This document shows positions 22,546 through 39,612 of a stretch of 57,443 bases of DNA, in pieces (the first letter of the stretch is position 1; every line of letters begins with the position of its first letter). The DNA is taken from assembly GCA_019455325.1 (NCBI GenBank), contig JACFMQ010000017.1, positions 1 through 57,443 on the forward strand. The letters run 5' to 3'. The position numbers and the translations under genes are program-made. This DNA comes from Rhodocyclaceae bacterium (GTDB lineage: Bacteria > Pseudomonadota > Gammaproteobacteria > Burkholderiales > Rhodocyclaceae). The notes below the pieces were generated by a model. It saw only the letters and a program-made list of their open reading frames with translations, ran no database searches and was not told where the DNA came from.

Positions 22546-22619
22546 GGGAATGCGTTGGCTGGCGCAAAAGCCGCATTCTAGCAGCGGGCGCGCGGGCGCC
22601 GATGGCTGATCCGGGGTGC

Positions 22620-24245
22620 TCAACCGGCGGTGGCTGGCGTCGCGCCGCCGCGCGGCGCGGCGAGCAGGCGCGCCGCCTTCGCCGCCTGGTCGATCACCCG
22701 GCGCAGCGTGCTGAAGCTGCGCGTCAGCGATTCCATCGCCGGAATGTCGATCTCGCCGCAGGCGCCGGCGGTCAGCAGGGCGGTCTTCAGATGCTGGTAG
22801 CGCGCCTCGAATTCCTCGGCCTGCGCTTCGTCCGGCGGCGCGAACGCTTCGTTCTCGGGATCGAGCCGGACGAGCAGGGTCTCGGCGAAGGCCGTGAGGC
22901 CGAGGATGTCGTGCCGCAGCGGCGAGTCGCCGAGCGCGGCGACGGTGGCGTGGCCGGTGGCGATGTCCGGCGCGATCTCGTGGCAGGTTTCGTAGTAACG
23001 CTGCACGCGCAGCAGCTCGGCGAGGAACTGCGCCGTGTCCGCGGACATCGAGCCGCGATGGACGCGCGTGACGAAGTCGGCGGCGGCGCGCGCCAGCGCC
23101 GGCAGCGCCGCCGACTCGTCCGGCCGGCCGGGCGCGCCGGTGAGCGCGCCGAGGCGCGCGCGGACGCCGCCGACGGCCATGCCGCCGACGCGGACCAGCT
23201 CGCGGCGCAGCGCGTCGGCGGCGAGCGAGGGCACCGAGGCGACGTTGCGGTCGAGGAAGCGCGGCCGCGAGATTTCCTCCTCGCGCGTGCGGAAGCGGCG
23301 CTTCAGAAAGACCGCCAGCCGGTCGCCGAGCGGCCACATCAGCGCCACGCCGAGCAGGTTGAAGATGGTGTGGAAGAGCGCCAGGCTGACCGCCGGCGAC
23401 GGGCCGAGATCGAAGGCGTCGCCGAGCAGCGCGACGGCCTGGATGAGCACCGGCAGCAGGACGAAGGCGACGATGCCGGTGAGGACGTTGAACAGGATGT
23501 GCGCGGACGCCGCGCGCTTGGCGTCGGGCGTGGCGCCGATGGCGGCGATCAGCGCCGTGGCGGTGGTGCCGACGTTGGAGCCGATGACCGCCGCCGCGGC
23601 CTCCGGCAGCGGCAGTGCGCCGGCTTCGGCGAGGGTCAGGGCGACGGCCATCGAGGCCGCCGACGACTGCATCAGCACGGTCAGCAGCAGGCCGGCGAGG
23701 ACGAAGCCGACGATCGAGCGCAGGCCGTGCCCGCTCCAGGCGCCGAGGTCGAAGAACTGCCCGGCGTCGCTGAAGGCCTGCTGCAGGAAGGCGATGCCGA
23801 GGAAGAGCAGGCCGAAGCCGGCGAGCGCCTGGCCGAGCGCGCCGCGCCGCGCGTTCGGGCCGGAGATGTGCAGGCACATGCCGATGCCGATCAGCGGCAG
23901 CGCGGCGGCCTCGACCTTGAGCTTGAAGCCGATCAGCGCGACCAGCCAGCCGGTCATCGTCGACCCCAGGTTCGAGCCGAAGATGACCCACAGCGACTGG
24001 CCGAAGGTGAGCAGGCCGGCGTTGACGAAGCCGATGGCGGCGATGGTGACGGCGCTGGAGGATTGCACCAGCATGGTCACGAAGAGGCCGGAGGCGAGGC
24101 CGCGCAGCCGGGTCTGCGTGGAGCTGGCGAGGACGTTGCCGAGCAGCGGCCCGGCGGCGGCCTTGAGGCCGTCGGTCATGAGCATCATGCCGAGCAGGAA
24201 AAGCCCGATGCCGCCGAGGATCAGACCGGCTTCCTCGGCGCTCAC
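22620..24245 (-). CDS. Na/Pi cotransporter family protein (NptA-PhoU type)
   Basis: A 541-residue inner-membrane protein. The first ~310 residues form about eight helices in two inverted repeats, each with the QSS signature (LVQSSSAV and LMQSSAAS), followed by a PhoU-like helical cytoplasmic domain. It probably imports or exports phosphate with sodium. GTG at 24245 is the likely start, since internal Met codons would remove part of the first helix; no clear ribosome-binding site is seen. Confidence 0.87.
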   Translation of the reverse strand: MSAEEAGLILGGIGLFLLGMMLMTDGLKAAAGPLLGNVLASSTQTRLRGLASGLFVTMLVQSSSAVTIAAIGFVNAGLLTFGQSLWVIFGSNLGSTMTGWLVALIGFKLKVEAAALPLIGIGMCLHISGPNARRGALGQALAGFGLLFLGIAFLQQAFSDAGQFFDLGAWSGHGLRSIVGFVLAGLLLTVLMQSSAASMAVALTLAEAGALPLPEAAAAVIGSNVGTTATALIAAIGATPDAKRAASAHILFNVLTGIVAFVLLPVLIQAVALLGDAFDLGPSPAVSLALFHTIFNLLGVALMWPLGDRLAVFLKRRFRTREEEISRPRFLDRNVASVPSLAADALRRELVRVGGMAVGGVRARLGALTGAPGRPDESAALPALARAAADFVTRVHRGSMSADTAQFLAELLRVQRYYETCHEIAPDIATGHATVAALGDSPLRHDILGLTAFAETLLVRLDPENEAFAPPDEAQAEEFEARYQHLKTALLTAGACGEIDIPAMESLTRSFSTLRRVIDQAAKAARLLAAPRGGATPATAG

Positions 24246-24324
24246 GGGGGCGGTGGCGATGTGCGCATGAGGCGAGCATGGGGCACGCGGCGGCGGCGCG
24301 TCAAGCGGCGTCCGGGCCGCCCGC

Positions 24325-24825
24325 TCAGCGCGCCGCCGGCATCCGTTCGCACAGGTGCTCCCCGGTATCCGGGTGGAAGATCAGGCGGCGCGCGCAGCGG
24401 CCGTGGAAGTCGCTCAGGTCGAGCGGGATGCCCGCCTGTTCCAGCCAGAACACGGCATAGCGGGTGTTGTGCTTGCCCACGGTCATCACGTCCTCGTGCT
24501 CGAACATCCGTCCGCCGCCGAAGGCCTTGGCGCGGAGACGCTCCGGCCGCGCGCCCGCCCGCAGCATGGCCTCGAACAGGCCGGCCATGCAGACGTCGCC
24601 GGCCATGCTCGTGCTGCCGCAGCGGATGGTGCGTTCCCGGCCGCGCGGCGGATAGACGTAATGGTTCATGCCGCCGACGCGGGCGACCGGGTCGAACAGG
24701 CAGACGGCGACGCAGGAGCCGAGGATCGTGCGCAGTACGCGGCGGCGCTCGACGGCCCACGCGCCCTGGGGCACGTCGATGGCGTCCGGCAGATGGTGCC
24801 TGGCGCGGAGCCTACCGTGGGGCAT
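24325..24825 (-). CDS. cheD: chemoreceptor glutamine deamidase CheD
   Basis: A 166-residue CheD protein that deamidates Gln residues of chemoreceptors. The catalytic Cys is in TILGSCVAV (Cys38) and the His in GGMNHYVYP (His55), and CGSTSMAGD supplies the usual third segment. Its start overlaps the 3' end of the REC-PAS-GGDEF-EAL gene by 14 bases, so the two are coupled. No cheR or cheB lies nearby, which is unusual for a CheD-containing cluster. Confidence 0.93.
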   Translation of the reverse strand: MPHGRLRARHHLPDAIDVPQGAWAVERRRVLRTILGSCVAVCLFDPVARVGGMNHYVYPPRGRERTIRCGSTSMAGDVCMAGLFEAMLRAGARPERLRAKAFGGGRMFEHEDVMTVGKHNTRYAVFWLEQAGIPLDLSDFHGRCARRLIFHPDTGEHLCERMPAAR

Positions 24826-27025
24826 GGCCGTGCGCGTGGGGGAAGGCGTCCGCCGGCAGGGGCTTGCCGAGCAGGTAGCCCTGCAGCAGGTCGCAGCCCT
24901 GCGCGGCGAGAAAGCGGCGCTGCGCGTCGGTTTCCACGCCCTCGGCGATCACGTCCATGCGCATGTTGTGCGCCAGCCCGATGATGGCGCGCACGATGGC
25001 TTCCGCGTCCGGCTCCTCGAACAGGGCGCTGACGAAGGACTGGTCGATCTTCAGATGGTCGATGGGAAAGCGCTTCAGGTAGCTGAGGCTGGAATAGCCG
25101 GTGCCGAAATCGTCGAGGGACAGGGACACGCCCATGCCGTGCAGTTCCCGCAGCGTGGCGATGGTGCGCGGCACGTCGTCCATCAGGGAGCTTTCGGTGA
25201 TCTCCAGTTCCAGGCTGTCCGGCGGAATGCCGCTTTCCTGCATGGCGCGCGCCACGGTGGCGCAGAGGTCGGGCCGCACGAGCTGCCGGGCGGAGAGGTT
25301 CACCGCCACCCGCCGCGGGCCGCATCCCGCGGCCCGCCAGGCGGCGATCTGCGCGCAGGCCGTGTGCAGCACCCAGGCGCCGATGTCGATGATGCAGCCG
25401 GTCTCCTCGGCGATGGGGATGAAGCGCGCCGGCGAGACGAAGCCGAGGTCGGCCGGATGCCAGCGCAGCAGGGCCTCGGCGGCGACGATGCGCCCCGAGG
25501 CCGCATCGACCTGGGGCTGGTACCAGAGCGCGAATTCCCCGCGCGCCACCCCGTGGCGCAGGCGCCGGGCGAGATCGAAGCGCTGGCGGGCAGCGTGGTC
25601 GAGTCCGGCGGAAAAGAAGACGGGGTCCCGGCCGCCCTGCGCCTTGGCGCGGGCCATGGCCAGGGCGGCGCTGGCGATGAGCGCGTCGAGGGTGGCGCCG
25701 TCGTCCGGGTAGAGTGCGACGCCGACGCTGACCGAGAGCGGGGTGGTGAGTTCGTCGCAGCTCATGTCCGTGTTCAGGCGCGACTGGATGGCGTCGATGA
25801 CCGACTGCACGCCGGCCAGCCCGCCGTCGTCGCGGTGGATCAGCACGAATTCGTCGCCGGCCTCGCGAAAGACCGTGTCCCGGGGGGGGACGCAGTCGCC
25901 GATCTGGCCGGCGACCCATTGCAGCACCTGGTTGCCGGCGCCGTAGCCGAAGAAATCGTTGATGTCGCGGAAGCGGTTCAGGTTCACGCAGATGACGGCC
26001 ACGGTCTCGCCGGGCTGGGCGTCGTCCTCGATGCACCGGAAGCGGTCGCGCACCAGTATCCGGTTCGGCAGGCCGGTGAGGGGATCGTGATGGGTCAGGA
26101 ACTCGATCAGCGTCTGTGCGTCCCGGCTCTCGGACAGGTCGTGGAACACGCCGACGTGGTTGACGAGGCTCTCGTCCTCGTCGCGGACCGCGACCAGGGC
26201 GGCGAGGCAGGGGAACTGGTTGCCGTCCTGGCGCCGGCACCACAGCTCGCCCGTCCAGCGCCCTTCGGCCTGCACGGTTTCCCGCAGCAGCCGGAAGAAT
26301 CCTTCGTCGTGCCTGGCGGCGTCGATGATCAGGCGGATGTCCTGGCCGACGCATGCTGCCGGCGGATAGCCCATCGCCGCCGAAAACGCGGGATTGACGG
26401 CGAGGATGCCGCCCTCGGCGTCGGTGATGAACATGGGGCTCAGGCTGACCTCGAAGGCGCTGGCGATGAGGCGCAGCCTTTTCTCGGCGGCGACGCGGGA
26501 GGCGATCTCGCCGCGCAGCGCGGCGACCGTCCGTTCCAGCGCCTCCGTCCGCGTCCGCACGCGCTCTTCCAGCGTGCGCTTCTCCCTGGCCAGGGCTTTC
26601 GTGGCCCGCGCCAGGGCGATGTGGGTGGCCACCCGCTGCAGCACCTCTTCGCCGGCCAGCGGCTTGCCGATGAAATCGACGGCGCCGCTGCGGAAGGCGC
26701 GCGCCTTGTCGTGGCGCTCGACGTGGGCCGAAAGGAAAATGACCGGGATGCCGGCGGTCCGCTCGTCCGCCTTCAGCCGGCGGCAGACCTCGAAGCCGTC
26801 CATCGCCGGCATGCGCACGTCGAGCAGCACGAGGTCGGGCGGCGAATTCCTGACCGTCCACAGCGCCAGTTCGCCGTCCGGCGCGGAACGCACCGCGTAG
26901 CCCTGCCGGCCCAGCAGTTCGCACAGGTAGGCCAGCGACTCGGCGGTATCGTCGACGACCAGCACCTCCCCTGGGGGGCCTTCGTGCGCTTGCCTCGGAC
27001 TCAATGCCTGCTCCTCCGGCCGCAT
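24812..27025 (-). CDS. response regulator with PAS, GGDEF and EAL domains
   Basis: A 737-residue cytoplasmic c-di-GMP signalling protein. Residues 18-140 are a receiver (phospho-Asp69 in LLDVRMP, Lys in GKPL), followed by a coiled coil (about 140-185), PAS (185-300), GGDEF with AGDEF at 389-393, and EAL with EALLRW at 517-522. Later EAL residues (NLSARQL, EITESS, DDFGTGYSS, KIDQSF) are intact, so phosphodiesterase activity is likely; AGDEF may also be active. The ATG at 27025 is chosen by domain start; no strong ribosome-binding site is seen. It is divergent from the REC-kinase gene. Confidence 0.9.
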   Translation of the reverse strand: MRPEEQALSPRQAHEGPPGEVLVVDDTAESLAYLCELLGRQGYAVRSAPDGELALWTVRNSPPDLVLLDVRMPAMDGFEVCRRLKADERTAGIPVIFLSAHVERHDKARAFRSGAVDFIGKPLAGEEVLQRVATHIALARATKALAREKRTLEERVRTRTEALERTVAALRGEIASRVAAEKRLRLIASAFEVSLSPMFITDAEGGILAVNPAFSAAMGYPPAACVGQDIRLIIDAARHDEGFFRLLRETVQAEGRWTGELWCRRQDGNQFPCLAALVAVRDEDESLVNHVGVFHDLSESRDAQTLIEFLTHHDPLTGLPNRILVRDRFRCIEDDAQPGETVAVICVNLNRFRDINDFFGYGAGNQVLQWVAGQIGDCVPPRDTVFREAGDEFVLIHRDDGGLAGVQSVIDAIQSRLNTDMSCDELTTPLSVSVGVALYPDDGATLDALIASAALAMARAKAQGGRDPVFFSAGLDHAARQRFDLARRLRHGVARGEFALWYQPQVDAASGRIVAAEALLRWHPADLGFVSPARFIPIAEETGCIIDIGAWVLHTACAQIAAWRAAGCGPRRVAVNLSARQLVRPDLCATVARAMQESGIPPDSLELEITESSLMDDVPRTIATLRELHGMGVSLSLDDFGTGYSSLSYLKRFPIDHLKIDQSFVSALFEEPDAEAIVRAIIGLAHNMRMDVIAEGVETDAQRRFLAAQGCDLLQGYLLGKPLPADAFPHAHGHAPR

Positions 27026-27068
27026 GGCCGTTTGCCGGGGATTCTGTCGATCCGGTTTTACGGCCGTT

Positions 27069-27086
27069 AGAGTAGAAATACACTGG
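27069..27086 (+). promoter_or_regulatory. 18-bp motif shared by two divergent regions, copy 1
   Basis: AGAGTAGAAATACACTGG lies midway between the divergent starts at 27025 and 27133. Sixteen of its 18 bases recur at 35800-35817 in the other divergent region of the signalling island. It contains TAGAAA, which could be a -10 element, but the conservation runs past it, suggesting an operator. Confidence 0.45.
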
Positions 27087-27132
27087 CCGGCCGTGATGAA
27101 TTTTCTGTACCGCCCGGCGCGTCGGGCCGACA

Positions 27133-28431
27133 ATGCCCGCCATCCAGCCCTTGCCGAACATGGACGAAAATCTGTCCTCCTCCCCCGCCTTCATCGATCG
27201 TGGCGAAGTGTTGCTGGTCGACGACTCGGCCACCTCGCTCGCCGCCCTCTCGACCGCCCTCACCCAGGCCGGCTACGTCGTGCGCGAGGCGCCGAGCGGC
27301 GAACTGGCGCTGATGACGCTCAAGGTGCGCCTGCCCGAACTGGTGCTGCTCGACGTGCGCATGCCGGCGATGGACGGCTTCGAGATCTGCCGGCGCATCA
27401 AGGCCGAGGCCGGCACCCGGGACATTCCCGTGATCTTCCTCTCGGCCCAGGATGAAACGCCCGACAAGGTGCGGGGATTCCGGGCCGGCGCCGTCGATTT
27501 CATCGGCAAGAACTTCGCGGAGGAGGAAATGCTGGCGCGCATCGACACCCACATCGAGCTGGGGCGGGTGAAGAAGGTGCTGGAAGCCGAACGCGCCGCG
27601 CTCGAGGACCGGGTGCGCGAACGCACCGAGGAACTGCGCCAGGACATCGCCAAGCGCCTGGCGGCCGAGGAGGAGAACCGCAGCCTGGAGCGCGCCCTGT
27701 GGCAGGCCCGCAAGATGGAGGCCATCGGCCTCTTGGCCGGCGGCATCGCCCACGACTTCAACCACCTGCTGTCGCTGATCCTCGGCTATGCGCAGTTTGC
27801 CCAGAGCGCGCTGGCCGGCGGCCGGACGGAAAAGCTCGCCGGCTATCTGGCGGAAATCCTCAAGGCCGGCGACGAGGGGCAGGCGGTGGTCGCCCAGTTG
27901 CTGGCCTTCAGCCGCGCCGACGAGGCCGCCGGCGAGGCCATCGACATCGGCGGCGCCATTGCCGAGTCCGTCGATTTTCTGCTCCCGGCCATGGGGGCGG
28001 GCATCCGCCTGGATTTCGCCGCCGCCGGCCCGCTGCCGCCGCTCTTCATCAAGCCCGTGCAGGTCCGGCAGGTCGCCACCAACCTGATCCTCAACGCCCG
28101 CGACGCCATCACGACCGGGGGCAACATCGCGGTCCGGCTGTCCATGGCGCGGTCGCATCCGGCGCAGGCCTGCGTTTCCTGCCGCAAGCCCTTCGCCGGC
28201 GACCATCTGGTGCTGTCGGTGGAAGACGACGGCCACGGCATCGCCCCGGAGATCCTGGACCGGCTCTTCGATCCCTTCTTCACCACCAAGGACATCGGCA
28301 AGGGCGTCGGCCTGGGCCTGCCGATGGTGCACGGCATCGTCCATTCCGCCGGCGGCCACGTCACGGTGGAATCCCTGCCGGGCGTGGGCAGCCGCTTCCG
28401 CATCTGGCTGCCCGCCGCCGGAACGGTCTGA
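27133..28431 (+). CDS. REC-histidine kinase (NtrB/hybrid type)
   Basis: A 432-residue soluble kinase. The N-terminal receiver has phospho-Asp74 in LLDVRMP, but the conserved KP after the fourth strand reads GKNF. A coiled coil (about 140-190) leads to a dimerisation domain with HDFNHLL (His207) and a full ATPase domain (NLILNARDA, DDGHGI, DPFFTTK, GVGLGLP). A CVSC pair sits between the N and G1 boxes. The start at 27133 is tentative, with ATG at 27160 as the alternative. It converges on the FixJ-type gene, its likely partner, though pairing is inferred from position only. Confidence 0.88.
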   Translation: MPAIQPLPNMDENLSSSPAFIDRGEVLLVDDSATSLAALSTALTQAGYVVREAPSGELALMTLKVRLPELVLLDVRMPAMDGFEICRRIKAEAGTRDIPVIFLSAQDETPDKVRGFRAGAVDFIGKNFAEEEMLARIDTHIELGRVKKVLEAERAALEDRVRERTEELRQDIAKRLAAEEENRSLERALWQARKMEAIGLLAGGIAHDFNHLLSLILGYAQFAQSALAGGRTEKLAGYLAEILKAGDEGQAVVAQLLAFSRADEAAGEAIDIGGAIAESVDFLLPAMGAGIRLDFAAAGPLPPLFIKPVQVRQVATNLILNARDAITTGGNIAVRLSMARSHPAQACVSCRKPFAGDHLVLSVEDDGHGIAPEILDRLFDPFFTTKDIGKGVGLGLPMVHGIVHSAGGHVTVESLPGVGSRFRIWLPAAGTV

Positions 28432-28440
28432 CGGGTTCGG

Positions 28441-29061
28441 CTACGGCGGCCTGGCGCCCGCCCAGATCAGCACGAGTTCGACGACGGAGTTGACGTGCAG
28501 CTTCTCCATCATGCGGCCGCGATGGTTGTCCACGGTGCGCGAGGAGATCTTCAGGAGTCCGCCGATTTCCCGGCTGGACTTGCCTTCGGCGACCAGCCGC
28601 AGGATCTTCGTTTCGGTGGGCGTCAGCAGCGCCAGACGCGCCTCGGTGGCCCGGCGCTGGATTTCCCTGATGTAGAGCAGTTCGCTCTCGGCCAGCGCGC
28701 GCTGCACCTTGTCGAGGAAGGACTGGTGCACGAAGGGCTTCTCGATGTAGTCGGAGGCGCCGGCCTTCATCGCCTCGACGGCCGTGCCCACTTCCGCGTA
28801 GCCGGTGATGAAGATGACCGGCGCGACGAAGCCGCGCGCCCGCATCAGGCGCAGGAACTCGAGCCCGCCGACCTCGGGCATGCGCACGTCGGAGACGACG
28901 CATTCGCGCTCCCGCGGGCGATAGCCGTCGAGGAACTCGCGCGCCGAGGCATAGGTCCGGGGGTGCAGCGATACGCTCTCGACCAGCTCCGCCACCATCT
29001 TCCTCATGGCGGGCTGGTCGTCCACGATGTGGACGAGCGCCGGGGCGGGCCGTGTTTCCAT
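28441..29061 (-). CDS. FixJ/NarL-family response regulator
   Basis: A 206-residue DNA-binding regulator. The receiver has Asp58 in VVSDVRMP and KPF near 107, and the C-terminus is a LuxR-type helix-turn-helix (LTPTETKILRLVAEGKSSREIGGLL, then ISSRTVDNHR). Sequence features such as FITGYAEVGTAVEAMKAGASDYIEKPF place it in the FixJ/TodT group. It ends the minus-strand chemosensory operon, 10 bases after the CheY gene, and is a good candidate for binding the shared 18-bp motif. Confidence 0.92.
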   Translation of the reverse strand: METRPAPALVHIVDDQPAMRKMVAELVESVSLHPRTYASAREFLDGYRPRERECVVSDVRMPEVGGLEFLRLMRARGFVAPVIFITGYAEVGTAVEAMKAGASDYIEKPFVHQSFLDKVQRALAESELLYIREIQRRATEARLALLTPTETKILRLVAEGKSSREIGGLLKISSRTVDNHRGRMMEKLHVNSVVELVLIWAGARPP

Positions 29062-29071
29062 GCCCGCCGGG

Positions 29072-29437
29072 TCACATCACCAGCTTGGCCACGGCGGCCA
29101 GCATCTGCGCCGGCTGGAAGGGCTTGACGATCCACGCTTTCGCGCCGCCTTCCTGGCCGGCCTTCTTCTTGTCCTCGGCCGCCTCGGTGGTCAGCATGAT
29201 CACCGGGGTGAACTTGTAGGCCGGCTTCTTTTTCACCTCGCGCAGGAAGCTCAGGCCGTCCATGTTCGGCATGTTCACGTCGGAGATGATGAGATGGATC
29301 TTCTGGCCGTCGGCCTTGGCCAGCGCCTCCCGGCCGTCGCAGGCTTCGATGACCGTGTAGCCGGCGCCGGTCAGCGTCAGGTTGACCACCTGCCGGAGGG
29401 AGGCGGAGTCGTCGACGATCAGGATGGTCTTGCTCAT
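29072..29437 (-). CDS. CheY-like single-domain response regulator
   Basis: A 121-residue receiver protein with acidic pair DD (9-10), phospho-Asp53 in ISDVNMPNMDG, Thr in MLTTE and Lys105 in VKPF. It has no output domain. It sits between a chemoreceptor-like gene and a FixJ-type gene and is likely phosphorylated by the CheA of this operon. GAGGAA precedes the ATG. Confidence 0.93.
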   Translation of the reverse strand: MSKTILIVDDSASLRQVVNLTLTGAGYTVIEACDGREALAKADGQKIHLIISDVNMPNMDGLSFLREVKKKPAYKFTPVIMLTTEAAEDKKKAGQEGGAKAWIVKPFQPAQMLAAVAKLVM

Positions 29438-29448
29438 GGGCGGATTCC

Positions 29449-30606
29449 TCAGAAAAAGGTGATTTCGGTCGCCTCGCCGGCCTTGTCGGCCTGGCGGGCG
29501 TCGTGCTGTTCGAGGGTGGCGTATTTCCCTTCCATCTCCGCCAGCCAGCGCTCCACGTCGAAGGGCGCCGGCGGCGGCGCGGGCGGCAGGGCGGCAAAAT
29601 AGCCGGCAAAGCGTTCGATGTCGTCCTTCGAGTGCATCAGGATCTGCTTCACCCGGTCCTGGAACTGCAGGCCGACCAGGACGCTGGCGATGCGGTCGCG
29701 GACTTCTCCGGCGTTGGCTTCGAGGCGCGAGGCCGTCTCCTTCATCGCCGTGCCGGCGCCGTCGAAGCGCGAAACCACGGTGTCGGCGGTCTCCCGCCAC
29801 GCCTGCATCAGCTTCCGCTCGTTCTGCGCCAGGCGCTCGGTGGCTTCCAGCGTCGAACGGATCATGCCGGTGACGACGTCGACCTTGCCGCTGATGCGCA
29901 GGCCGGTTTCGCCGGAGGCCGTAGACAGCTTGCGCACCTCGTCGGCGACCACGGCGAAGCCCCGGCCGGCTTCGCCGGCGCGGGCGGCCTCGATGGCCGC
30001 GTTGAGCGCCAGCAGGTTGGTCTGGGCGGCGATGTCGGCGACGACCGTCGCCATTTCCCGCAGCTCGCCGATGATGCCGTCGAGGGAAACGATCTGCTGG
30101 AGCATCGCCTCCTTCTCGGCGAAGCCTTGCTCCATGCTCGCCACCATCCCTTCCAGGTCGCGCTGCCCGAGGGCGATGACCGACGGGAAATCCATGTGCT
30201 CGCTTTTGCCCGCGGAGGCGGAGACCGCGTTCTCGATGCCTTTCAGGATGTCGCCGAATTCCTGCGCGAGGTCGGTGATGCCCCGCTCCGTCTGGCCGCT
30301 GGCCAGGTCGATGTGCGCCGACCAGCGCGGCATGATCGCGCCCACGGCCTGCCGCAGGCTGTCCAGATAGCCGGCGTGCGCATCGGCCCGCTGGCGCTCG
30401 GCCTGCGCCGCTGCCAGGCTCGCGCGCAGGGCGGCGGCCTGCGCTGCCTGCCGCCGCGCCAGCCAGAGTCCGGCGGCGACCGCGAGGCCGACGAGGCCGG
30501 CGGCGGCGATCGCCGCGCCACCCGGCTCACCCGCGCCGATGAGGACGATGGCGGCCAGCCCTGCGAGGACGCACAGCGCGGCCGCCCGTTTTTCCGAAGC
30601 TGTCAT
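29449..30606 (-). CDS. methyl-accepting chemotaxis-like protein without periplasmic domain
   Basis: A 385-residue membrane protein with two close helices (about 8-26 and 30-50), so almost no periplasmic sensor. A chemoreceptor signalling hairpin follows, with the tip sequence [20 protein letters not shown] and [13 protein letters not shown]. The C-terminal tail ends EITFF. It may sense internal or membrane signals, or act as an adaptor array component. GGGGAG precedes the ATG; CheY follows after 11 bases. Confidence 0.9.
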
Positions 30607-30650
30607 TCAATCTCCCCTGCATGTGAGCGTGCGCGGTATGGCATCTCCGC

Positions 30651-32855
30651 TCAGGCGGCGGCCGGGGCGAGCGCCGCCGCGACGGGGCCGCCTTTCCGGG
30701 AATGCTGCTGCTCCCGGCCGGCGACGTCGTGCACCAGCCGGGCCACGTCGATGATCAGGGCCACCTCGCCGCTGCCCAGGATGGTCGAGCCGGAGACGCA
30801 GGGCACGTTGCCGAACAGCGGCCCGAGCGGCTTGATGACCGTCTGGCACTTGCCGTGGATGCGGTCCACCACGAGGCCGACCCGCCGCCCGCCGAAGCGC
30901 GTGACGACGACGCGCGGCCGTACCTGCGGGGCGCCGGTCTCGCCGAACACCTCGCGCAGGCGGACGAAGGGCATGGCTTCGTCGCGCAGTTCCATGTAGT
31001 CGACGCTGTCGATGCCCTCCGGCAGCTCGACGCATTCGACCACCATGTCCAGCGGCACGATGAAGTGGGCGGCGCCGACGCCGACGTGGAAGCCGTCGAT
31101 GATGGCCAGCGTCAGCGGCAGGCACAGGCGCATGGTGGTGCCGCGGCCGAGCGTCGATTGGATGTCCAGGGTGCCGCGCATGGCCTCGACGTTGGCCCGC
31201 ACCACGTCCATGCCGACGCCGCGGCCGGAGAGGTTGGTGATCCGCTCCGCCGTCGAGAAGCCCGGTTCCAGGATCAGCCGGAAGATTTCCTGCTCGCTCA
31301 GGCCGGCGCCGGCGTCCACCAGCCCCTTGTCGATGGCTCGGGCCAGTATCTTGGCGGGATCGAGCCCCTTGCCGTCGTCGGTGACCTCGACGACGATGGT
31401 GCCCGATTCGTGGTAGGCGTTGAGCCCGACCGTGCCGTGGGCCGGCTTGCCGACCGCGACGCGTTCTTCGGCCGAGCCGATGCCGTGGTCCATGGAGTTG
31501 CGGATCAGATGCATCAGCGGATCGCCGAGCTTTTCCACCATCGACTTGTCCAGCTCGGCGTCGGCCCCGGTGATGACCAGCTCGATGTCCTTGCCCAGTT
31601 CCCGGGAGACGTCGCGCACCACGCGGGGAAAGCGCGAGAACACCTCGCCGATGGGCACCATGCGCAGGCTCAGGGTCATGTCGCGGATGTCCTCCACCAG
31701 CGACAGCAGCAGCGAGGCCGACTCGTGCAGCTCCGGCAGGCCGGCGCGGCTGGCCTGGGCGTAGGTGCCGGAGCCGGCGATGACCAGCTCGCCGACGCGG
31801 TTGATGAGGGCGTCGAGGCGGTCGGACGGCACCTTGATGCTCTTCGCCTCGCCGGCCCGCTTTTCCTCGTGCAGGCGCTGCCGGGTCGCCGCCGCCTCGA
31901 CCACGGCCGGATGCACGGACTGGTTCTCGACCAGGATGTGGCCGATCCGGCGGGATTCCTCCGCTGCCTGCTGCGCGTTCAGCGCCGTTTCCAGCTCCTT
32001 CGCCGTCAGCGTGCCGCAGGCGATGAGAATCTCGCCCAGCCGCTGCCCGCCCAGCGGCGCGGATTCGATGTGGCGGATGAATTCCTCCATCTTGCCGTGC
32101 GGCGGGAAGATCCGGATCGTCGCGCGCTCGGCGATGAAGTCGAAGACGCCCTCGATCTCGTGCTTGTCCGCGTCGCTCCTGAGCGCGACCTCGAAGCCGA
32201 GGTAGCAGGCTTCCGGGTCGGCGGCGTCCAGGTCCGGCAGGTGATCGGCGACGGTCTCGACGTGGACGATCTCGCCATAGTTCGAGAGATAGTGGATGAA
32301 GGACAGCGGGTCCATGCCGTCGGCGAGGATGTCGGAGGAAAAGCGCAGCGAGATGTGCCAGTGCTCGCTGCCGATCTCGCCGCCGCCGCTCGCCGACACC
32401 GCTTCCGTCTGCTCGGCGGGCACCTGCGCCGCCGCCTCGTCGTCGTCCTCGTGGGCGTGCGGGACCCAGGCCCCGAGCCGGTCGATCAGCGCGTCGCTGC
32501 GCTGCACGGCCTCCGCGCCGACGCCGCCGTCGAGCGAGGCATGGACGATGGCATCGATCTGGTCCTGGCTTTCCAGCAGCACGGTGATGAGATCGGAGGT
32601 GAAGCCGATCTCGCCCTTGCGCAGCCGGTCGAGGACGTTCTCGACGACGTGGGTGAAGCGCACCACCTCGTCCAGGCCGAACAGCCCGCCCGAGCCCTTG
32701 AGCGTGTGGGCGCAGCGGAACAGGGCGTGCAGATCGTCGTCGCGGCAGCCGCCTTCCTCGGCGCGCAGCAGGATCTCCTCCATCTGGGCGATCAGCTCCC
32801 TCGCCTCCTCGGCGAAGGTTGCCAGCGCCTGGGAAAAATTGCCCGATGTGTCCAT
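30651..32855 (-). CDS. cheA: chemotaxis histidine kinase CheA
   Basis: A 734-residue CheA. The P1 HPt domain has the phospho-site in CAHTLKGSGG (His50), the P2-like region (about 165-270) carries FSSDILADGMDPLSF, then come P3 dimerisation, P4 ATPase (HLIRNSMDHGI, DDGKGLD, GRGVGMDV) and a C-terminal CheW-like P5 domain. Its ATG lies one base after the stop of the STAS gene. Together with CheW, two receptors and CheY it makes a near-complete excitation pathway. Confidence 0.95.
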   Translation of the reverse strand: MDTSGNFSQALATFAEEARELIAQMEEILLRAEEGGCRDDDLHALFRCAHTLKGSGGLFGLDEVVRFTHVVENVLDRLRKGEIGFTSDLITVLLESQDQIDAIVHASLDGGVGAEAVQRSDALIDRLGAWVPHAHEDDDEAAAQVPAEQTEAVSASGGGEIGSEHWHISLRFSSDILADGMDPLSFIHYLSNYGEIVHVETVADHLPDLDAADPEACYLGFEVALRSDADKHEIEGVFDFIAERATIRIFPPHGKMEEFIRHIESAPLGGQRLGEILIACGTLTAKELETALNAQQAAEESRRIGHILVENQSVHPAVVEAAATRQRLHEEKRAGEAKSIKVPSDRLDALINRVGELVIAGSGTYAQASRAGLPELHESASLLLSLVEDIRDMTLSLRMVPIGEVFSRFPRVVRDVSRELGKDIELVITGADAELDKSMVEKLGDPLMHLIRNSMDHGIGSAEERVAVGKPAHGTVGLNAYHESGTIVVEVTDDGKGLDPAKILARAIDKGLVDAGAGLSEQEIFRLILEPGFSTAERITNLSGRGVGMDVVRANVEAMRGTLDIQSTLGRGTTMRLCLPLTLAIIDGFHVGVGAAHFIVPLDMVVECVELPEGIDSVDYMELRDEAMPFVRLREVFGETGAPQVRPRVVVTRFGGRRVGLVVDRIHGKCQTVIKPLGPLFGNVPCVSGSTILGSGEVALIIDVARLVHDVAGREQQHSRKGGPVAAALAPAAA

Positions 32856-32856
32856 G

Positions 32857-33165
32857 TCAGTTCGCCTTGATGAGCAGCGGATCGCCGAGCAGATGGCCGA
32901 CGTTCGCCAGATCCACGAGCCGCATCACCTCGTCGGAATGATGGCGGAAGCGCACCGTCTTGCCCGCCTTGCGCTTGGCCAGCAGCATCAGTTGCAGGCC
33001 GGCGGTGTCGATCTCCGTGACCTCGCCGAGATCGACCTCGATGTCGTCGGCGGCGGACAGGGCTTCGAGCAGGCGGCCGCGGATGTCCAGGACCGAGAAG
33101 ATGGTCAGCTCGCCGGCGATCCACAGGGTCTTCTGCGCCGCGTCCGTCCTGATGTCCCAGGCCAT
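32857..33165 (-). CDS. STAS-domain protein (anti-sigma factor antagonist-like)
   Basis: A 102-residue single STAS domain. The conserved loop reads EVTEIDTAGLQL, with Thr54 at the place where SpoIIAA-type proteins carry the phosphorylated Ser/Thr. No anti-sigma kinase or phosphatase is adjacent. It lies between cheW and cheA, so it is more likely an adaptor or output switch of this chemosensory pathway than a sigma-factor regulator. Confidence 0.88.
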   Translation of the reverse strand: MAWDIRTDAAQKTLWIAGELTIFSVLDIRGRLLEALSAADDIEVDLGEVTEIDTAGLQLMLLAKRKAGKTVRFRHHSDEVMRLVDLANVGHLLGDPLLIKAN

Positions 33166-33175
33166 GGCCGGCGCC

Positions 33176-33733
33176 TCAGGCGGCGGCCGCGGCGACGGCG
33201 GCCAGCTCCGCCACCGACAGCGTCCGCTCGATGTTCAGGATGATGACGAAGTGCCCTTCCTGGCGCGCCATGCCGGTGATGAAGTCGGTGTCGATGCGCG
33301 CGCCGAAGACCGGGGCGGTGTCGATGTCGCTGTCCTTGATCTCGGTCACGGCGTTGACCCGGTCGACGACCAGGCCGACCACGTGCTTCTCGCCGTTGTG
33401 CTGGATCTCGACGATGACGATCGAGGTCCGCCGCCCGACGCTGGCCGGCGTCCAGCCGAAGCGCACGGCCAGGTCGATGACCGGCACCACGCCGCCGCGC
33501 ACGTTGATCACGCCGCGCAGCGAGGGCGGCATCATCGGCACCGCGGTCGGCGGCAGGTACTCGATGATTTCGCGGATGCGCAGGATCTCGATGGCGAAGA
33601 TCTCGTTGCCCAGCGTGAAGGTCAGGTAGAGATGCCGGTGCTGCAGGGCCGTCCGGCCGTGCTCCGGCGCCGGCTTCGCCGGCTGCCCGGCGGCGGCGAG
33701 CGCCGGCACGCGGGAATCGGTGGAAGCTTCCAT
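33176..33733 (-). CDS. cheW: chemotaxis coupling protein CheW
   Basis: A 185-residue CheW that links receptors to CheA. After a disordered Ala/Pro-rich N-terminus of about 33 residues, the SH3-like domain shows LTFTLGNEIFAIEI, RGVINVRGGVVPVIDL and GLVVDRVNAV. The ATG at 33733 is preceded by GGGAAAG. It lies 26 bases after the chemoreceptor gene. Confidence 0.95.
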   Translation of the reverse strand: MEASTDSRVPALAAAGQPAKPAPEHGRTALQHRHLYLTFTLGNEIFAIEILRIREIIEYLPPTAVPMMPPSLRGVINVRGGVVPVIDLAVRFGWTPASVGRRTSIVIVEIQHNGEKHVVGLVVDRVNAVTEIKDSDIDTAPVFGARIDTDFITGMARQEGHFVIILNIERTLSVAELAAVAAAAA

Positions 33734-33759
33734 GTCGCTTTCCCTTCGTCGGCCGGTGG

Positions 33760-35700
33760 TCAGGAGAAAGTCTCGAATTCGCCCATCTCTTCCGGCTGCC
33801 TGGCCAACGGGCGCAGCGAGACGGCCGTCTTCGCCGGCGGCCGCGGCGCGGTCGCCGGACGGCGGGCGGGCAGGCCGCCGGATAGCACGAACTGATCCAC
33901 CAGCTCCTGCAGGGAAACCGCCTGGCTGCTCATTTCCTCGGCCGTCGCCGACAGCTCTTCCGAGCCCGCGGCGTTTTGCTGCGTCACCTTGTTGAGCTGG
34001 TTCATGGCCCCGGAAATCTGCCCCGCGCCCGTCGTCTGCTCGTTCGAGGCGTAGGCGATCTCGCGCACCAGATCGGCGGTCTTCTGGATCGAGGGCAGCA
34101 TGCTGATCAGCAGCGCGCCGGCGTCCTCGGCCGTCTTGACGCTGCCCGCCGCCAGCTCGCCGATCTCCTGCGCCGCCACCTGGCTGCGCTCGGCGAGCTT
34201 CCTTACCTCGGCCGCCACCACGGCGAAGCCCATGCCGTGCTCGCCGGCGCGCGCCGCCTCGATGGCGGCGTTCAAGGCCAGCAGGTCGGTGCGGTAGGCG
34301 ATGTCGTCGATGATGCCGATCTTCTCGGCGATCGACTTCATCGCCGTCACCGTCGCCGCCACCGCTTCGCCGCCCTTCTTGGCGTCGTCCGCCGACTGCT
34401 TGGCGATGTCGTCGGTGATTTTCGCGTTTTCCGTGTTCTGGGTGATCGAGGCCGACATCTCTTCCATCGCCGAGGTCGTCTCTTCCAGGCTCGCCGCCTG
34501 CTCCGTCGTCGCCTGCGACAGCGATTGCGCCGTCGTCGCCACCTGGCCGGCCGCCGCCGCGATCGAATCGGCGCCGCCCTTCACTTCGCGCAGGGTGTCG
34601 CCGAGCTTGTCCAGCGTCGAGTTCAGCGCCGTCGCCAGCGTTCTGAATTCGCCCTCGTAATTGCCGTCGACCCGCTTGGAGAGGTCGCCGTCGGCCATCA
34701 CCCGGAGCACCGCGCCGACGTCGCCCATGACCGTGGCGCTGGTCTCGGCCAACTGGTTGATGCTCGTGCTCAGATCGAGGGCGAAGCCCTGCTTGCCCTT
34801 GAGGTCGAGCCGCCGCGACAGGTCGCCCTTGGCCGCCGCGCCCACCACCTGCTGGGTCTCGCCGATGACCTCGGAGAGCTTGCCGACCATGTCCTTGACG
34901 GAAACCATCATGCTCGTCGTGTCGCCGGGGCGGGTGTCGATCTTCACGTTGAGGTCGCCCGCGGCCACGGTCTTGACGATCGCCGACACCTCGGCCGGCT
35001 CGCCGCCGAGCTGCGCCAGCGTGCTGTGGATGACGTACAGCCCGATGAGCACCAGCAGCGCGGCCGAGACCAGGCCGGACCACAGCATCAGCCGGCTGGC
35101 CGCGCGGTCGGCCTCCCGGCCCTGGGCGATGGCGTCGGCGGTGATCCGGTTGTTCATCTCGACGATCCGGTTCAGGGTGGCCTCGGAGGCTTCCAGCAGC
35201 GGCGTCCCCTTGTCCAGTTGGCCGAACAGGCGGACGAACAGCTCCTTCTGTCCCGCCTCGGAGTCGTTCCGGCTCAGCGCCTCGATGGTCGCCGTCAACT
35301 CCGTGTCGTTGCTCTTCCATACCTCCCATTCCTTGACGAACTGCTTCCAGAGCGCCGCTTCATCGGGCGTCTGCGGCAGGGGCTCGTAGAGTTTCCAGCC
35401 GCGTTCGATGTCGTCCCAGGAGCGTTTCTTGATCTTCAGCACGTCGAGGAAATGGGCCTGCGCCTTGTAGTTGTTCTCCCAGATCAGCGCCCGGAGATTC
35501 GCCGCCTGCACCGCCGTCTGGCCCTCGCTGACGGTCAGCAGGCCGCCGATGGAAGGCACGCGCACCTCGCCGATTTCCTGCATGGCTTCACTCACCGCCC
35601 CGATCCCCCGCCAGCCGGCGCCGCCGGCGACGGCCAGCGCCGCGATTGCCACGACCAGCATGAGGATCAGCTTCGCCTTGATTGTCATCTTCGCCAGCAT
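33760..35700 (-). CDS. methyl-accepting chemotaxis protein with 4HB-type sensor
   Basis: A 646-residue transmembrane chemoreceptor. Helix 1 (about 10-29) and helix 2 (about 195-215) flank a helical four-helix-bundle-like periplasmic domain, followed by HAMP repeats (about 215-370) and the signalling hairpin with [20 protein letters not shown]. The ending EFETFS resembles the xWxxF CheR/CheB-binding tail with Phe for Trp, although no cheR is present here. The ATG at 35700 has GAGGTG six bases upstream and is preferred over the GTG at 35709. It is the first gene of the cheW/STAS/cheA operon. Confidence 0.93.
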
Positions 35701-35799
35701 CGTTCGCACCTCGCCTTGTCTTGTCGTAATGGCAGCCCGGCCTGCGGAGACCGGGCTGCGCTTGCGAAGTGAGCTTAGGGAGGGGCGATGCGGCGGCGG

Positions 35800-35817
35800 A
35801 GAGTAGAATTACACAGG
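35800..35817 (+). promoter_or_regulatory. 18-bp motif shared by two divergent regions, copy 2
   Basis: AGAGTAGAATTACACAGG lies between the divergent starts of the chemoreceptor (35700) and the hybrid kinase (35907) and differs from copy 1 at two positions. It contains TAGAAT at 35804-35809, a good -10 match on the plus strand, but no matching -35 is seen. Confidence 0.45.
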
Positions 35818-35906
35818 ACGCATAGATGAATCCCCGTGGTCCGGAGGGCGGAGCGGCGGCCGGCGCCTTCATGACGGAGGTGTCTATTGCGATATAGTGC
35901 GGTTCC

Positions 35907-37682
35907 ATGAAATCCGGCCGTTTCCATGATCGCTGGTGCCTTTCCCTGCTGTCGCGCATCGTGTTCCTGGCAGCGGCGTGGGCGATGGCCGTCGGCGCCG
36001 CCCGCGCGGCGCCGGCCGATCCGTTCGCCGGCCGGCGCGTGCTGGTGCTCAACTCCTACACCGAAGGCGTCGGTGCCCACGAAGAGATCATCAGCGGCTT
36101 CTTCGCCGGGGTCGCGGCGGCCGGCGGCCGGAACGACAGCGTCTATACCGAGAAGCTCGACCTGCTCCGCTTCGGGACGGCGACGCACCGGCAGGCGCTG
36201 GTCGAACTGCTGCGCACCCGCTATGCGTCCAGGCAGATCGACCTGCTCGTCACGGTCCAGCAGCCCGCCCTCGATTTCGCGCTCGACGAAGGGCGCGCCC
36301 TGTTCGCGGGGGTGCCGACCATCGCCGCCATGGTGCCGGAGGAATCCTTCGCCGGCGCGGCGCATCCCCACGTCGTGCGGCTGCCCTACGAGATCGATTT
36401 TTCCGGCACCCTCGACCATGCCCGCCGGCTCTTTCCCGATACCCGGCGGGTGGTGGTGGCGGGCGGCATCGGCCCGGCGGACAGGGTGTTCATCGCCCAG
36501 GCGAAGCGCGCCTTCGCGTCCCGGCAGGGGGAGTTCGAATTCGAATACCTGGACGACGGCGACCTGGAACGCAGCCTCGAACGCATCGGCAGGCTGCCGG
36601 CCGGCAGCGTCGCCATCATCCTGACCCACTACCAGACCCGGACCGGCCTGAGCGTTCCCCACCGCGGCGTGCTGATGCAGCTCGCCCGCGCCGCCAGCGT
36701 TCCCGCCTTCACCCAATGGGCCAGCCTGCTGCAGGACGGGGCCATGGTCGGCGGCTCGGTGCTCGACGTCTCGGCCATGGGGCGCCAGGCCGCCGAGGCC
36801 GCGATCGACTACCTCGCCGGCCGCAAGACGCTGGCGCAATTGCGCGAACTGCCGGCCGTCGGGAGCATGCCGATCTTCGACTGGGCGCAGGTCGAGCGCT
36901 GGCGGGGCGACGTCTCCCGCCTGCCGGCGCACAGCGTCTTCATCGGACGTCCGGCCAGCCTGTGGGCCGGGCACCGGCACACCGTCATCGTCTGGCTGGC
37001 CGTGATGGCGGGGCTGGCCGGCCTGCTCGTCGCGCTGGTCGTCACCAACGGGCGCTACCGCCGGACGGTGCGCGACCACGCCGACCGCCGCGACCACCTG
37101 GAAGGCCTGGTCGCCGAGCGGACGCAGGCGCTGGCGGCGGCGCTGGAAAGGGCGGAGGCGGCGAACCGGGCGAAGAGCGTGTTCCTGTCGAGCATGAGCC
37201 ACGAACTGCGCACGCCGCTCAATTCGGTGATCGGCTTCTCGGCGCTGATCGCCCGCGCCGGGAACCTCGACGAGAGCACGCGCTGCAACCTGGAGATCAT
37301 CAACCGCTCGGGCCGGCACCTGCTGACCCTGATCAACAACATCCTCGAACTGTCGAAGATCGAGGCCGGACGGATCGAGCTGGAAGAAGCCTCGACCGAC
37401 GTCGCGGCGCTGGCGCGGGAGGTGGCCGACATGCTGCTGCCGCAGGCGGAGCAGGCCGGGCTGGCCCTCGAAGTGAACATCGCCGACCTGCCGCCGGCCC
37501 TGCGCGTCGACGCGGTGAAGCTCAGGCAGGTGCTCCTCAACCTGCTCGCCAACGCCATCAAGTTCACGCGCGAGGGCAGCGTCACGCTGGAAGTGCGGGT
37601 CGTCTCCCGCACCCTGTGCGACGCGCGCATCGCCTTCGCAGTGCGCGACACCGGCATCGGCATCGCGCCGGAGGACCGGTAG
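35907..37682 (+). CDS. hybrid sensor kinase, N-terminal part up to an in-frame amber stop
   Basis: A 591-residue product. A signal peptide (1-35) leads to a periplasmic ABC-transporter-substrate-binding-like sensor (about 43-340), a membrane helix (about 358-379), a coiled coil, and a kinase domain with the H-box SSMSHELRTPLNS (His432) and N-box NLLANAIKF. Translation stops at TAG (37680-37682), directly after GIGIAPEDR in the G1 box, where a Glu codon is expected. The same frame continues with RIFQPFVQV, the GTGLGLAI box and a receiver. As read, the ATPase domain lacks its F and G2 boxes, so this product should not phosphorylate. Confidence 0.85.
   Translation: MKSGRFHDRWCLSLLSRIVFLAAAWAMAVGAARAAPADPFAGRRVLVLNSYTEGVGAHEEIISGFFAGVAAAGGRNDSVYTEKLDLLRFGTATHRQALVELLRTRYASRQIDLLVTVQQPALDFALDEGRALFAGVPTIAAMVPEESFAGAAHPHVVRLPYEIDFSGTLDHARRLFPDTRRVVVAGGIGPADRVFIAQAKRAFASRQGEFEFEYLDDGDLERSLERIGRLPAGSVAIILTHYQTRTGLSVPHRGVLMQLARAASVPAFTQWASLLQDGAMVGGSVLDVSAMGRQAAEAAIDYLAGRKTLAQLRELPAVGSMPIFDWAQVERWRGDVSRLPAHSVFIGRPASLWAGHRHTVIVWLAVMAGLAGLLVALVVTNGRYRRTVRDHADRRDHLEGLVAERTQALAAALERAEAANRAKSVFLSSMSHELRTPLNSVIGFSALIARAGNLDESTRCNLEIINRSGRHLLTLINNILELSKIEAGRIELEEASTDVAALAREVADMLLPQAEQAGLALEVNIADLPPALRVDAVKLRQVLLNLLANAIKFTREGSVTLEVRVVSRTLCDARIAFAVRDTGIGIAPEDR
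37680..37682 (+). other. in-frame TAG interrupting the hybrid kinase
   Basis: Codon 592 of the kinase frame is TAG. The codons on both sides continue one hybrid-kinase sequence without a frame change from 35907 to 38543 (879 codons including the final stop). A single G-to-T change from GAG, the Glu codon usual in the EDRERIFQPF motif, would explain it. Confidence 0.9.
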
Positions 37683-37706
37683 CGGATCTTCCAGCCCTTC
37701 GTCCAG

Positions 37707-38543
37707 GTGGCGTGCCACGCCACCTCGGCCGGCACCGGCCTGGGGCTGGCCATCACGCGGCTCAACCTGCGCCTGCTCGGCAGCGACCTGAAACTCGAAT
37801 CGGCGCTTGGTGCCGGCTCCACCTTCCGCTTCGTCCTGCGGCTGCCGACGGCCGAGGCGCTGGCGGCGTCCGCGGCAACGGCGGCGCACGGCGAGGTGAA
37901 GGAACTGGAAGCGTCCGCGCAAGGAAAGCGCCTGCTCATCGTCGAGGACAAGCCCGATGCCCGGCTGCTGCTGAGGGCGCTGCTGGCGCCGCTGGGCTTC
38001 GCGGTCTCCGAGGCGGAGAACGGCGCGGAGGCGGTCGAACGGGCCCGGCGCGATCCCTGCGACCTGATCCTGATGGACTGGCGCATGCCGGTGCTGGACG
38101 GCCTGGAAGCGACCCGGCGCATCCGGGCGCTGCCCCTCGCCCGCCAGCCGAAGATCCTCATGCTCTCCGCCAGCGCCCTCGAGGAGGAGCGGCGGAGCGT
38201 GCTGGCCGCCGGCATCGACGGCTTCCTGCGCAAGCCCTTGCAGGAGGATGAGCTGTTCGAGGCCCTGGAAAGGCATCTGAACATCCGCTTCGAACGCAGC
38301 GCGCGGGGGATGGCGACGCCGTCCGAACCGCCGCCGCCACCCGTCACCACCGACCTGCTGCGCGCCTTGCCCGAGGCCTGCCGCCGCGCCCTGCGCATCG
38401 CCATCGAGGAGCTGAACCGCGCCAAGCTCGATGCCGCGCTGGCCCAGATCGAGGCGGATCAGCCGGATCTGGCGCGGGGCATCGCGCAGATGGCCCGGCG
38501 CTTCCGCTACAAGGAGCTTTGGGCGCTGGTCACCGCCGTCTAG
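37707..38543 (+). CDS. hybrid sensor kinase, C-terminal part after the amber stop
   Basis: The first ATG after the stop, at 37707, opens 278 codons in the same frame. The fragment holds the G2 box (GTGLGLAIT), the end of the ATPase domain, and a receiver (about residues 75-190) with phospho-Asp in LILMDWRMP and Lys in LRKPL, then a helical tail. There is no ribosome-binding site and the start falls inside the ATPase domain, so independent translation is unlikely. It is best read as the distal half of a broken gene, or of one rescued by amber readthrough. The frame ends at TAG 38541-38543. Confidence 0.75.
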   Translation: MACHATSAGTGLGLAITRLNLRLLGSDLKLESALGAGSTFRFVLRLPTAEALAASAATAAHGEVKELEASAQGKRLLIVEDKPDARLLLRALLAPLGFAVSEAENGAEAVERARRDPCDLILMDWRMPVLDGLEATRRIRALPLARQPKILMLSASALEEERRSVLAAGIDGFLRKPLQEDELFEALERHLNIRFERSARGMATPSEPPPPPVTTDLLRALPEACRRALRIAIEELNRAKLDAALAQIEADQPDLARGIAQMARRFRYKELWALVTAV

Positions 38544-38573
38544 CGGCCCGACCACTCCCGCCCGCTGCCGGCG

Positions 38574-38598
38574 AAAAAAAACCCGGCCGGGGCCGGGT
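38574..38598 (-). terminator. Rho-independent terminator of htpX
   Basis: Read on the minus strand, ACCCGGCC and GGCCGGGT (38581-38588 and 38591-38598) form an 8-bp stem, followed by a run of eight T (38574-38581). It lies about 35 bases after the htpX stop. Confidence 0.85.
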
Positions 38599-38633
38599 CT
38601 GGAACGCGGCGGGGGCCGCGGAGGGGGTCACAC

Positions 38634-39506
38634 TCAGGACTGCAAAGCTTGAATCCGGGATTCGATCGGCGGATGGGTGGCGAACAGCGCCATCCACGCC
38701 GGGCCGCCGGCGATGCCGGAACTGGCCATGTTCTGCGGCAGCGGCTCGGTGTGCAGGCCGCCGAGGCGGCGCAGCGCCGAGACCATCGGCTGCGGGTTGC
38801 CCATCAGTTGGGCGGCGCCGCGGTCGGCGCGGAATTCGCGCTGGCGCGAGAAGTAGGCGACGATGATGCTGGCCAGGATGCCGAAGACGATGTCGCAGAC
38901 GATCGTCGTCACGTAATAGCCGATCCCCGGTCCGGACGATTCCTGGTCGCCGCGGCGCAGGAAGGAATCGACCAGGTAGCCGACGACGCGCGAGAGGAAG
39001 ACGACGAAGGTGTTCACCACGCCCTGGATCAGCGTCAGCGTGACCATGTCGCCGTTGGCGACGTGCGCCACCTCGTGCGCCAGCACCGCCTCCGCCTCTT
39101 CGCGGTTCATGCTCTGCAGGAGGCCGGTGGACACGGCGACCAGCGAATTGTTCTTCGTCGCGCCGGTGGCGAAGGCGTTCGGCTCGCCGTCGTAGATGGC
39201 GACCTCGGGCATGGCGATGCCGGCCTTCCGCGACAGGCGCTCGACCGTCTGCACCAGCCAGAACTCGGTCGAATTGGACGGCGTCGAGATGACGCGGGCG
39301 CCGGTGCTCCACTTGGCCATCGGCTTCGACATCCACAGCGAGATGAAGGCGCCGCCGAAACCGATGACGGCGGCGAAGCCGAGCAGCGCGCCGAGGTCGA
39401 GGCCGTTGGCGGTGAGGAACCGGTTCACGCCGAGCAGGCTTGCCGTGATGCCGAGCACGACCATCACGGCCAGGTTGGTGGCGAGGAAAAGGATGGTGCG
39501 TTTCAT
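38634..39506 (-). CDS. htpX: protease HtpX, membrane zinc metalloprotease
   Basis: A 290-residue M48-family inner-membrane protease for quality control of membrane proteins. Two N-terminal helices (about 5-25 and 38-58) precede the zinc motif HEVAH (144-148), with the third ligand Glu in [13 protein letters not shown]. Two further helices lie between. The ATG at 39506 has AAGGAG upstream. It is divergent from the nhaR-like gene across an AT-rich 106-bp region. Confidence 0.96.
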
Positions 39507-39612
39507 GGGGTGGCTCCTTCGGAAGGATGCAGCGACGGCCATGATAGTGGCCTTGTGCTTTCCATAAAAGCAGATAAAAATTTAACTTTATTTCGTAAAA
39601 ATAGGATGCTCG

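Follow-up and report, generated by a model that had tools for sequence, protein, structure and literature searches.

An in-frame amber codon in an accessory hybrid histidine kinase gene of a Rhodocyclaceae bacterium, probably a young nonsense allele

A Rhodocyclaceae genome (GenBank assembly GCA_019455325.1) carries on contig JACFMQ010000017.1 a frame for a hybrid histidine kinase that is whole in every respect but one: a TAG codon stands in its middle. Is the gene broken, is the sequence wrong, or does the cell read through the stop? We approached this question in a window of 57,443 nucleotides, which is the whole stretch of DNA analysed. The reading we favour, at a probability of about 0.77, is that of a young nonsense allele, a pseudogene in formation, in an accessory hybrid histidine kinase gene. 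We infer that the TAG is real, that kinase activity is lost, that the change is recent and that the gene is dispensable. A preliminary description of this DNA had offered a recent nonsense mutation, a sequencing error, an amber suppressor and deliberate readthrough as options; the nonsense mutation fits best, whereas the suppressor is without support and deliberate readthrough without positive evidence.

The interrupted frame and its predicted product

The kinase frame (35907-38543, + strand) comprises 878 codons with one internal stop, the TAG at codon 592, which is its sole interruption. The open parts on either side are in the same frame, with zero shift. The features are these:

35871-35898, + strand: promoter-like site, 9/12 consensus bases (consensus match only)
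35907-37679, + strand: upstream open part of 591 codons, with sensor region, membrane segment (by eye), HisKA and the first half of HATPase_c
35907-37061, + strand: N-terminal sensor region, 385 aa, ABC_sub_bind-like by way of its relatives
37173-37370, + strand: HisKA (PF00512), residues 423-488, E 7.3e-19
37509-37847, + strand: HATPase_c (PF02518), cut by the TAG, matched as two halves and also as one match containing 1 TAG
37680-37682, + strand: in-frame TAG, codon 592
37683-38540, + strand: downstream open part of 286 codons, with the HATPase_c remainder, receiver and C-terminal tail
37935-38267, + strand: receiver domain (PF00072), residues 85-195 of the downstream part, E 1.7e-27
38541-38543, + strand: regular terminator of the frame, likewise TAG

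At the level of the DNA frame, HisKA, HATPase_c and receiver are encoded together, but the TAG at 37680-37682 keeps them from forming one uninterrupted open reading frame. In the Pfam matches the stop interrupts HATPase_c, with profile positions 2-53 of 111 upstream and 56-110 downstream, and the receiver encoded after it is complete. Codon-position G+C is alike on the two sides (0.723/0.479/0.926 upstream versus 0.752/0.490/0.920 downstream). When all 1428 stops flanked within the window by 60 codons on each side were scored for same-frame coding on both flanks, this TAG ranked first (0.47, with the runner-up at 0.17), so the two-sided coding signal is not a matter of chance. The letters and the one-frame coding on either side thus confirm what had been noticed at the outset, a single in-frame TAG at codon 592 and no shift. 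This one lesion, inactivating as we read it, is accompanied by no further visible decay. The promoter-like site upstream is the only one in the scanned region, against a shuffle mean of 0.2.

Translation most likely terminates at codon 591. The resulting product of 591 residues would keep the sensor, the membrane segment and HisKA, but its ATP-binding domain would lack the second half. By half a HATPase_c fold, ATP should be neither bound nor used properly, and without the missing half the truncated product should be incapable of autophosphorylation. The receiver would remain unmade or be present only in traces.

The sensor had been described as resembling ABC substrate-binding proteins. The region by itself has no Pfam match, but PF04392 (ABC_sub_bind) matches 5 of 10 aligned sensors of its relatives at E up to 0.1, the best at 4e-10, and a sensor profile finds two proteins of solved structure, 3lft and 6hni (E about 1e-5), which makes the description a fair one. 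Folding the sensor from its sequence alone gave a poor model (mean pLDDT 51.3). In seven genomes reached via named loci, a sensor search run without a positive control gave no match. Plasmid records yielded matches for the sensor (149 records) and for the downstream part (2544 records), all below 60% identity.

Relatives and the variable slot

How well is the part beyond the stop preserved? Measured against eight relatives, and expressed relative to residues 415-591, identity is 0.88 in the ATPase remainder and 0.89 in the receiver; the same ratios in the relatives are 0.86-0.96 and 0.71-0.85, so the receiver encoded here tends, if at all, to slightly better conservation than theirs, a point against a nonsense allele. 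The C-terminal tail, about 80 residues long, can be aligned with those of the eight relatives at 21-47% identity. These normal ratios, together with the matches to the HATPase_c remainder and the receiver, bear out the earlier remark that the downstream half is well preserved. That half appears free of any sign of relaxed selection at the sequence level, and with the nearest relative about 55% identical, a recent change would be invisible to the comparison, which included one genome per species. Among named records, the best matches to the downstream half come from two Accumulibacter assemblies, at 40-42%. Unchanged quality after the TAG is equally expected if the base was miscalled or the stop is decoded; the lack of visible downstream decay fits a young mutation, a wrong base and decoding alike.

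The residue at the interrupted position tells us less than had been supposed. Among 60 loci given, 47 align at residue 592 (the other 13 do not align at this residue with E up to 1e-20), and these hold 12 different residues: Ala 13, Glu 7, Pro 6, Gln 5, Ser 5 and others 11. In a closer set of eight, the genome's own paralogue included, the residue is Glu in four, Gln in two and Ala in two. Glu had been given as the usual residue of related kinases, but it is found in only 7/47 and 4/8. The position is variable and therefore gives little information on the residue that preceded the TAG. None of the 47 aligned relatives, which include no close orthologue, has a stop at this residue. Other kinases with stops do occur, at least 13 among the matches listed (best 15 candidates per genome), and we considered them as a precedent for a stop in HATPase_c. 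They do not serve as one: in 10 of the 13 the alignment, running from residue 385-426 to residue 784-794, contains no stop, the stop lying outside the aligned part, and in the other three the stops fall at residue 800 or beyond. In L085 the stop is at 803, and in L113 at 650.

The surroundings indicate what kind of gene this is. The kinase sits at the right edge of a slot whose content varies between species of the genus:

20743-22545, - strand: Glu/Gln-tRNA synthetase gene (presumably glnS), left border of the slot
22549-38566, no strand assigned: variable slot with signalling and chemotaxis genes, this kinase at its right edge
38634-39542, - strand: M48 peptidase gene, right border of the slot

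In five congeners the genes of the right flank (M48 peptidase, LysR-type, HrpA-like helicase) are conserved, with 79-91% protein identity where covered (in G005 the helicase gene is outside the stretch compared). DNA similarity to the congeners begins on the right at 38559-38574, just past the kinase, and stops on the left near 22523-22601, at the Glu/Gln-tRNA synthetase gene, except in G001, where it extends to 24310. The slot was compared in these five congeners; G004 was left out since its M48 matches lie on contig ends. From the end of the left similarity to the M48 gene, it measures 98 bases in G005, 823 in G003, 3914 in G006 and 4024 in G002, and in G001 1691 bases follow a shared Na/Pi cotransporter. 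In the genome studied here it is about 16 kb long and holds, in order, a Na/Pi cotransporter, a receiver-PAS-GGDEF-EAL protein, a receiver-kinase, a LuxR-type regulator, a further receiver, an MCP-like protein, CheA, STAS, CheW and an MCP gene, and then this kinase. G+C is uniform along the window (0.67-0.72), and no 12-base direct repeat joins the slot ends (22401-22800 compared with 38401-38700).

Among the matches listed (best 15 candidates per genome), six congeners have no counterpart of the kinase. The kinase region finds only partial DNA matches in congeners there, at 65-74%, and the sensor is matched in G005 as the only congener, at 27% and 25%. In the slot stretches of G006 and G002 the ATPase part is matched weakly, at 30-32% identity, and these stretches may hold another kinase. 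As a member of a signalling set that varies between species, the gene does not look core, and such an accessory gene could presumably be lost at little cost.

Elsewhere in the slot, about 110 bases at 29926-30036 match dozens of places in the genus at 81-93% DNA identity. They sit in the MCP signalling domain of the ORF at 29449-30606 and so are probably the conserved MCP tip.

Alternatives to a real, terminating stop

The alternative that survives best, though we consider it unlikely, is a base-call or consensus error in a gene that is intact in the organism. In its favour, the stop is single and comes with no further damage, and the assembly, in 31 contigs, has draft status. Yet the assembly is not visibly error-rich: no other stop of the window scores similarly, and none of the 95 ABC_tran matches (150 of 189 candidates scored, domain stretches read) holds a stop.

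Programmed or tolerated amber readthrough, giving a truncated sensor along with a little full-length hybrid kinase, is in our judgement very improbable. It would account for the full preservation of the downstream half, and a position with as many residues as 592 would tolerate many inserted ones. In the part of PMC7918605 considered here, in-frame stops under mild purifying selection are described as widespread in bacteria, but the same source starts from the assumption that functional recoding is absent in the vast majority, and it finds such stops mostly short-lived. The absence of a stop at residue 592 in all 47 relatives also argues against a conserved device, and the frame's own terminator is likewise TAG, so that a general suppressor would extend this protein too.

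The decoding machinery gives this reading no help. RF1 is present (532.9 bits, cut-off 423.25). A CUA-anticodon suppressor tRNA, which the preliminary description had proposed looking for, is found by ARAGORN neither among the 45 tRNA genes located, a list without Ile(gat), Ala(tgc) or Arg(ccg), nor at any of six places picked out by a loop-plus-T-arm pattern scan, one of which falls in an Arg(tct) gene; with those three tRNAs missing from the list, the absence of CUA is not proof. For PylS there is a single match, below threshold at 24.1 bits (cut-off 178.15), and 1 of 14 control genomes exceeds the cut-off. Other in-frame TAGs, likewise proposed as a sign of suppression, are absent from the domain stretches of the other 74 HATPase_c matches and of the 95 ABC_tran matches. 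In the full set of 75 HATPase_c matches two hold a stop, namely this TAG and a TGA at C31:109297-109629. The latter was rejected as a second interrupted kinase; it coincides with the end of its ORF (L192 805-2127) and is read as a gene end. The standard code appears to be in use, and an amber suppressor is unsupported by the tRNA set (from the incomplete list), by PylS or by RF1.

The three missing tRNAs are an observation of their own. Gaps in the assembly or a miss in the search are the likely cause, but the lack of Arg(ccg) is surprising, given the 32 occurrences of CGG in the kinase gene.

Could the DNA after the stop promote readthrough? A perfect hairpin of 9 bp with a 3-base loop lies downstream of the TAG at 37705-37725, and of three folds around the TAG, those of 60 and 101 bases are matched in stability by only 3/200 shuffles each, that of 100 bases by 12/200. 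Hairpins of this grade are nevertheless not special in this DNA: the window has 13 rows of them at 9 distinct places (five Markov copies have 5-8 rows), and 178 of 1079 coding 60-mers from nine frames of the window are as stable, as are 191 of 859 within the kinase gene. We rejected the hairpin as a readthrough signal, since comparable stability is common in the window's own coding sequence and ordinary for DNA of about 70% G+C.

Near the start of the window, positions 59-93 form a perfect hairpin of 15 bp that ends in runs of A and T and so resembles a terminator on either strand.

We give hardly any credence to a functional split, in which the truncated sensor would act alongside a receiver protein with a start of its own. 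A receiver product could begin at either of two in-frame GTG codons, at 37707 and at 37896, but no ribosome-binding site is recognisable by eye before either, the break lies inside HATPase_c and away from a domain border, and none of the 47 relatives stops there. Just as hard to credit is a TAG that serves as a regulated leak point, with mostly a kinase-dead membrane sensor and a readthrough fraction as the active hybrid kinase; if it were so, the truncated sensor could be a dominant-negative partner, and decoding fidelity would set signalling output.

Meaning and comparison with known cases

The young nonsense allele, the reading we prefer, adds one more accessory signalling gene to those with such a lesion, and as it stands it matters little. 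Among the titles listed in a literature search, none deals with this kinase gene. The allele would matter only if a full-length protein through the TAG were shown. For annotation, the kinase should be marked in gene calls as interrupted rather than as two genes. The slot beside the M48 peptidase gene differs in content between species of the genus, and in this one it carries many signalling genes.

The nearest comparisons are with kinases that lack the lesion. An uninterrupted hybrid histidine kinase of another genome (G116:C83, L169) is alike in kinase, receiver and tail along the whole aligned length, but it carries extra sequence between sensor and kinase that the copy described here is without. 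The genome's own paralogue (G000:C24:396215-397648, L168) is a related kinase with receiver and C-terminal tail over the aligned length. What sets the gene apart is the TAG inside HATPase_c, where the eight aligned relatives have no stop.

A broader comparison is offered by the genes with isolated in-frame stops in PMC7918605. Like those genes, as presented in the part of that work considered here, the kinase has one stop in an otherwise preserved frame. The large-scale part of that study deals with stops common to two or more species, whereas the TAG described here is shared with none of the 47 relatives. With this difference, our case fits the picture that the source, so far as considered, draws of isolated in-frame stops in bacteria: widespread, mostly short-lived and, in the vast majority, assumed not to be functionally recoded.
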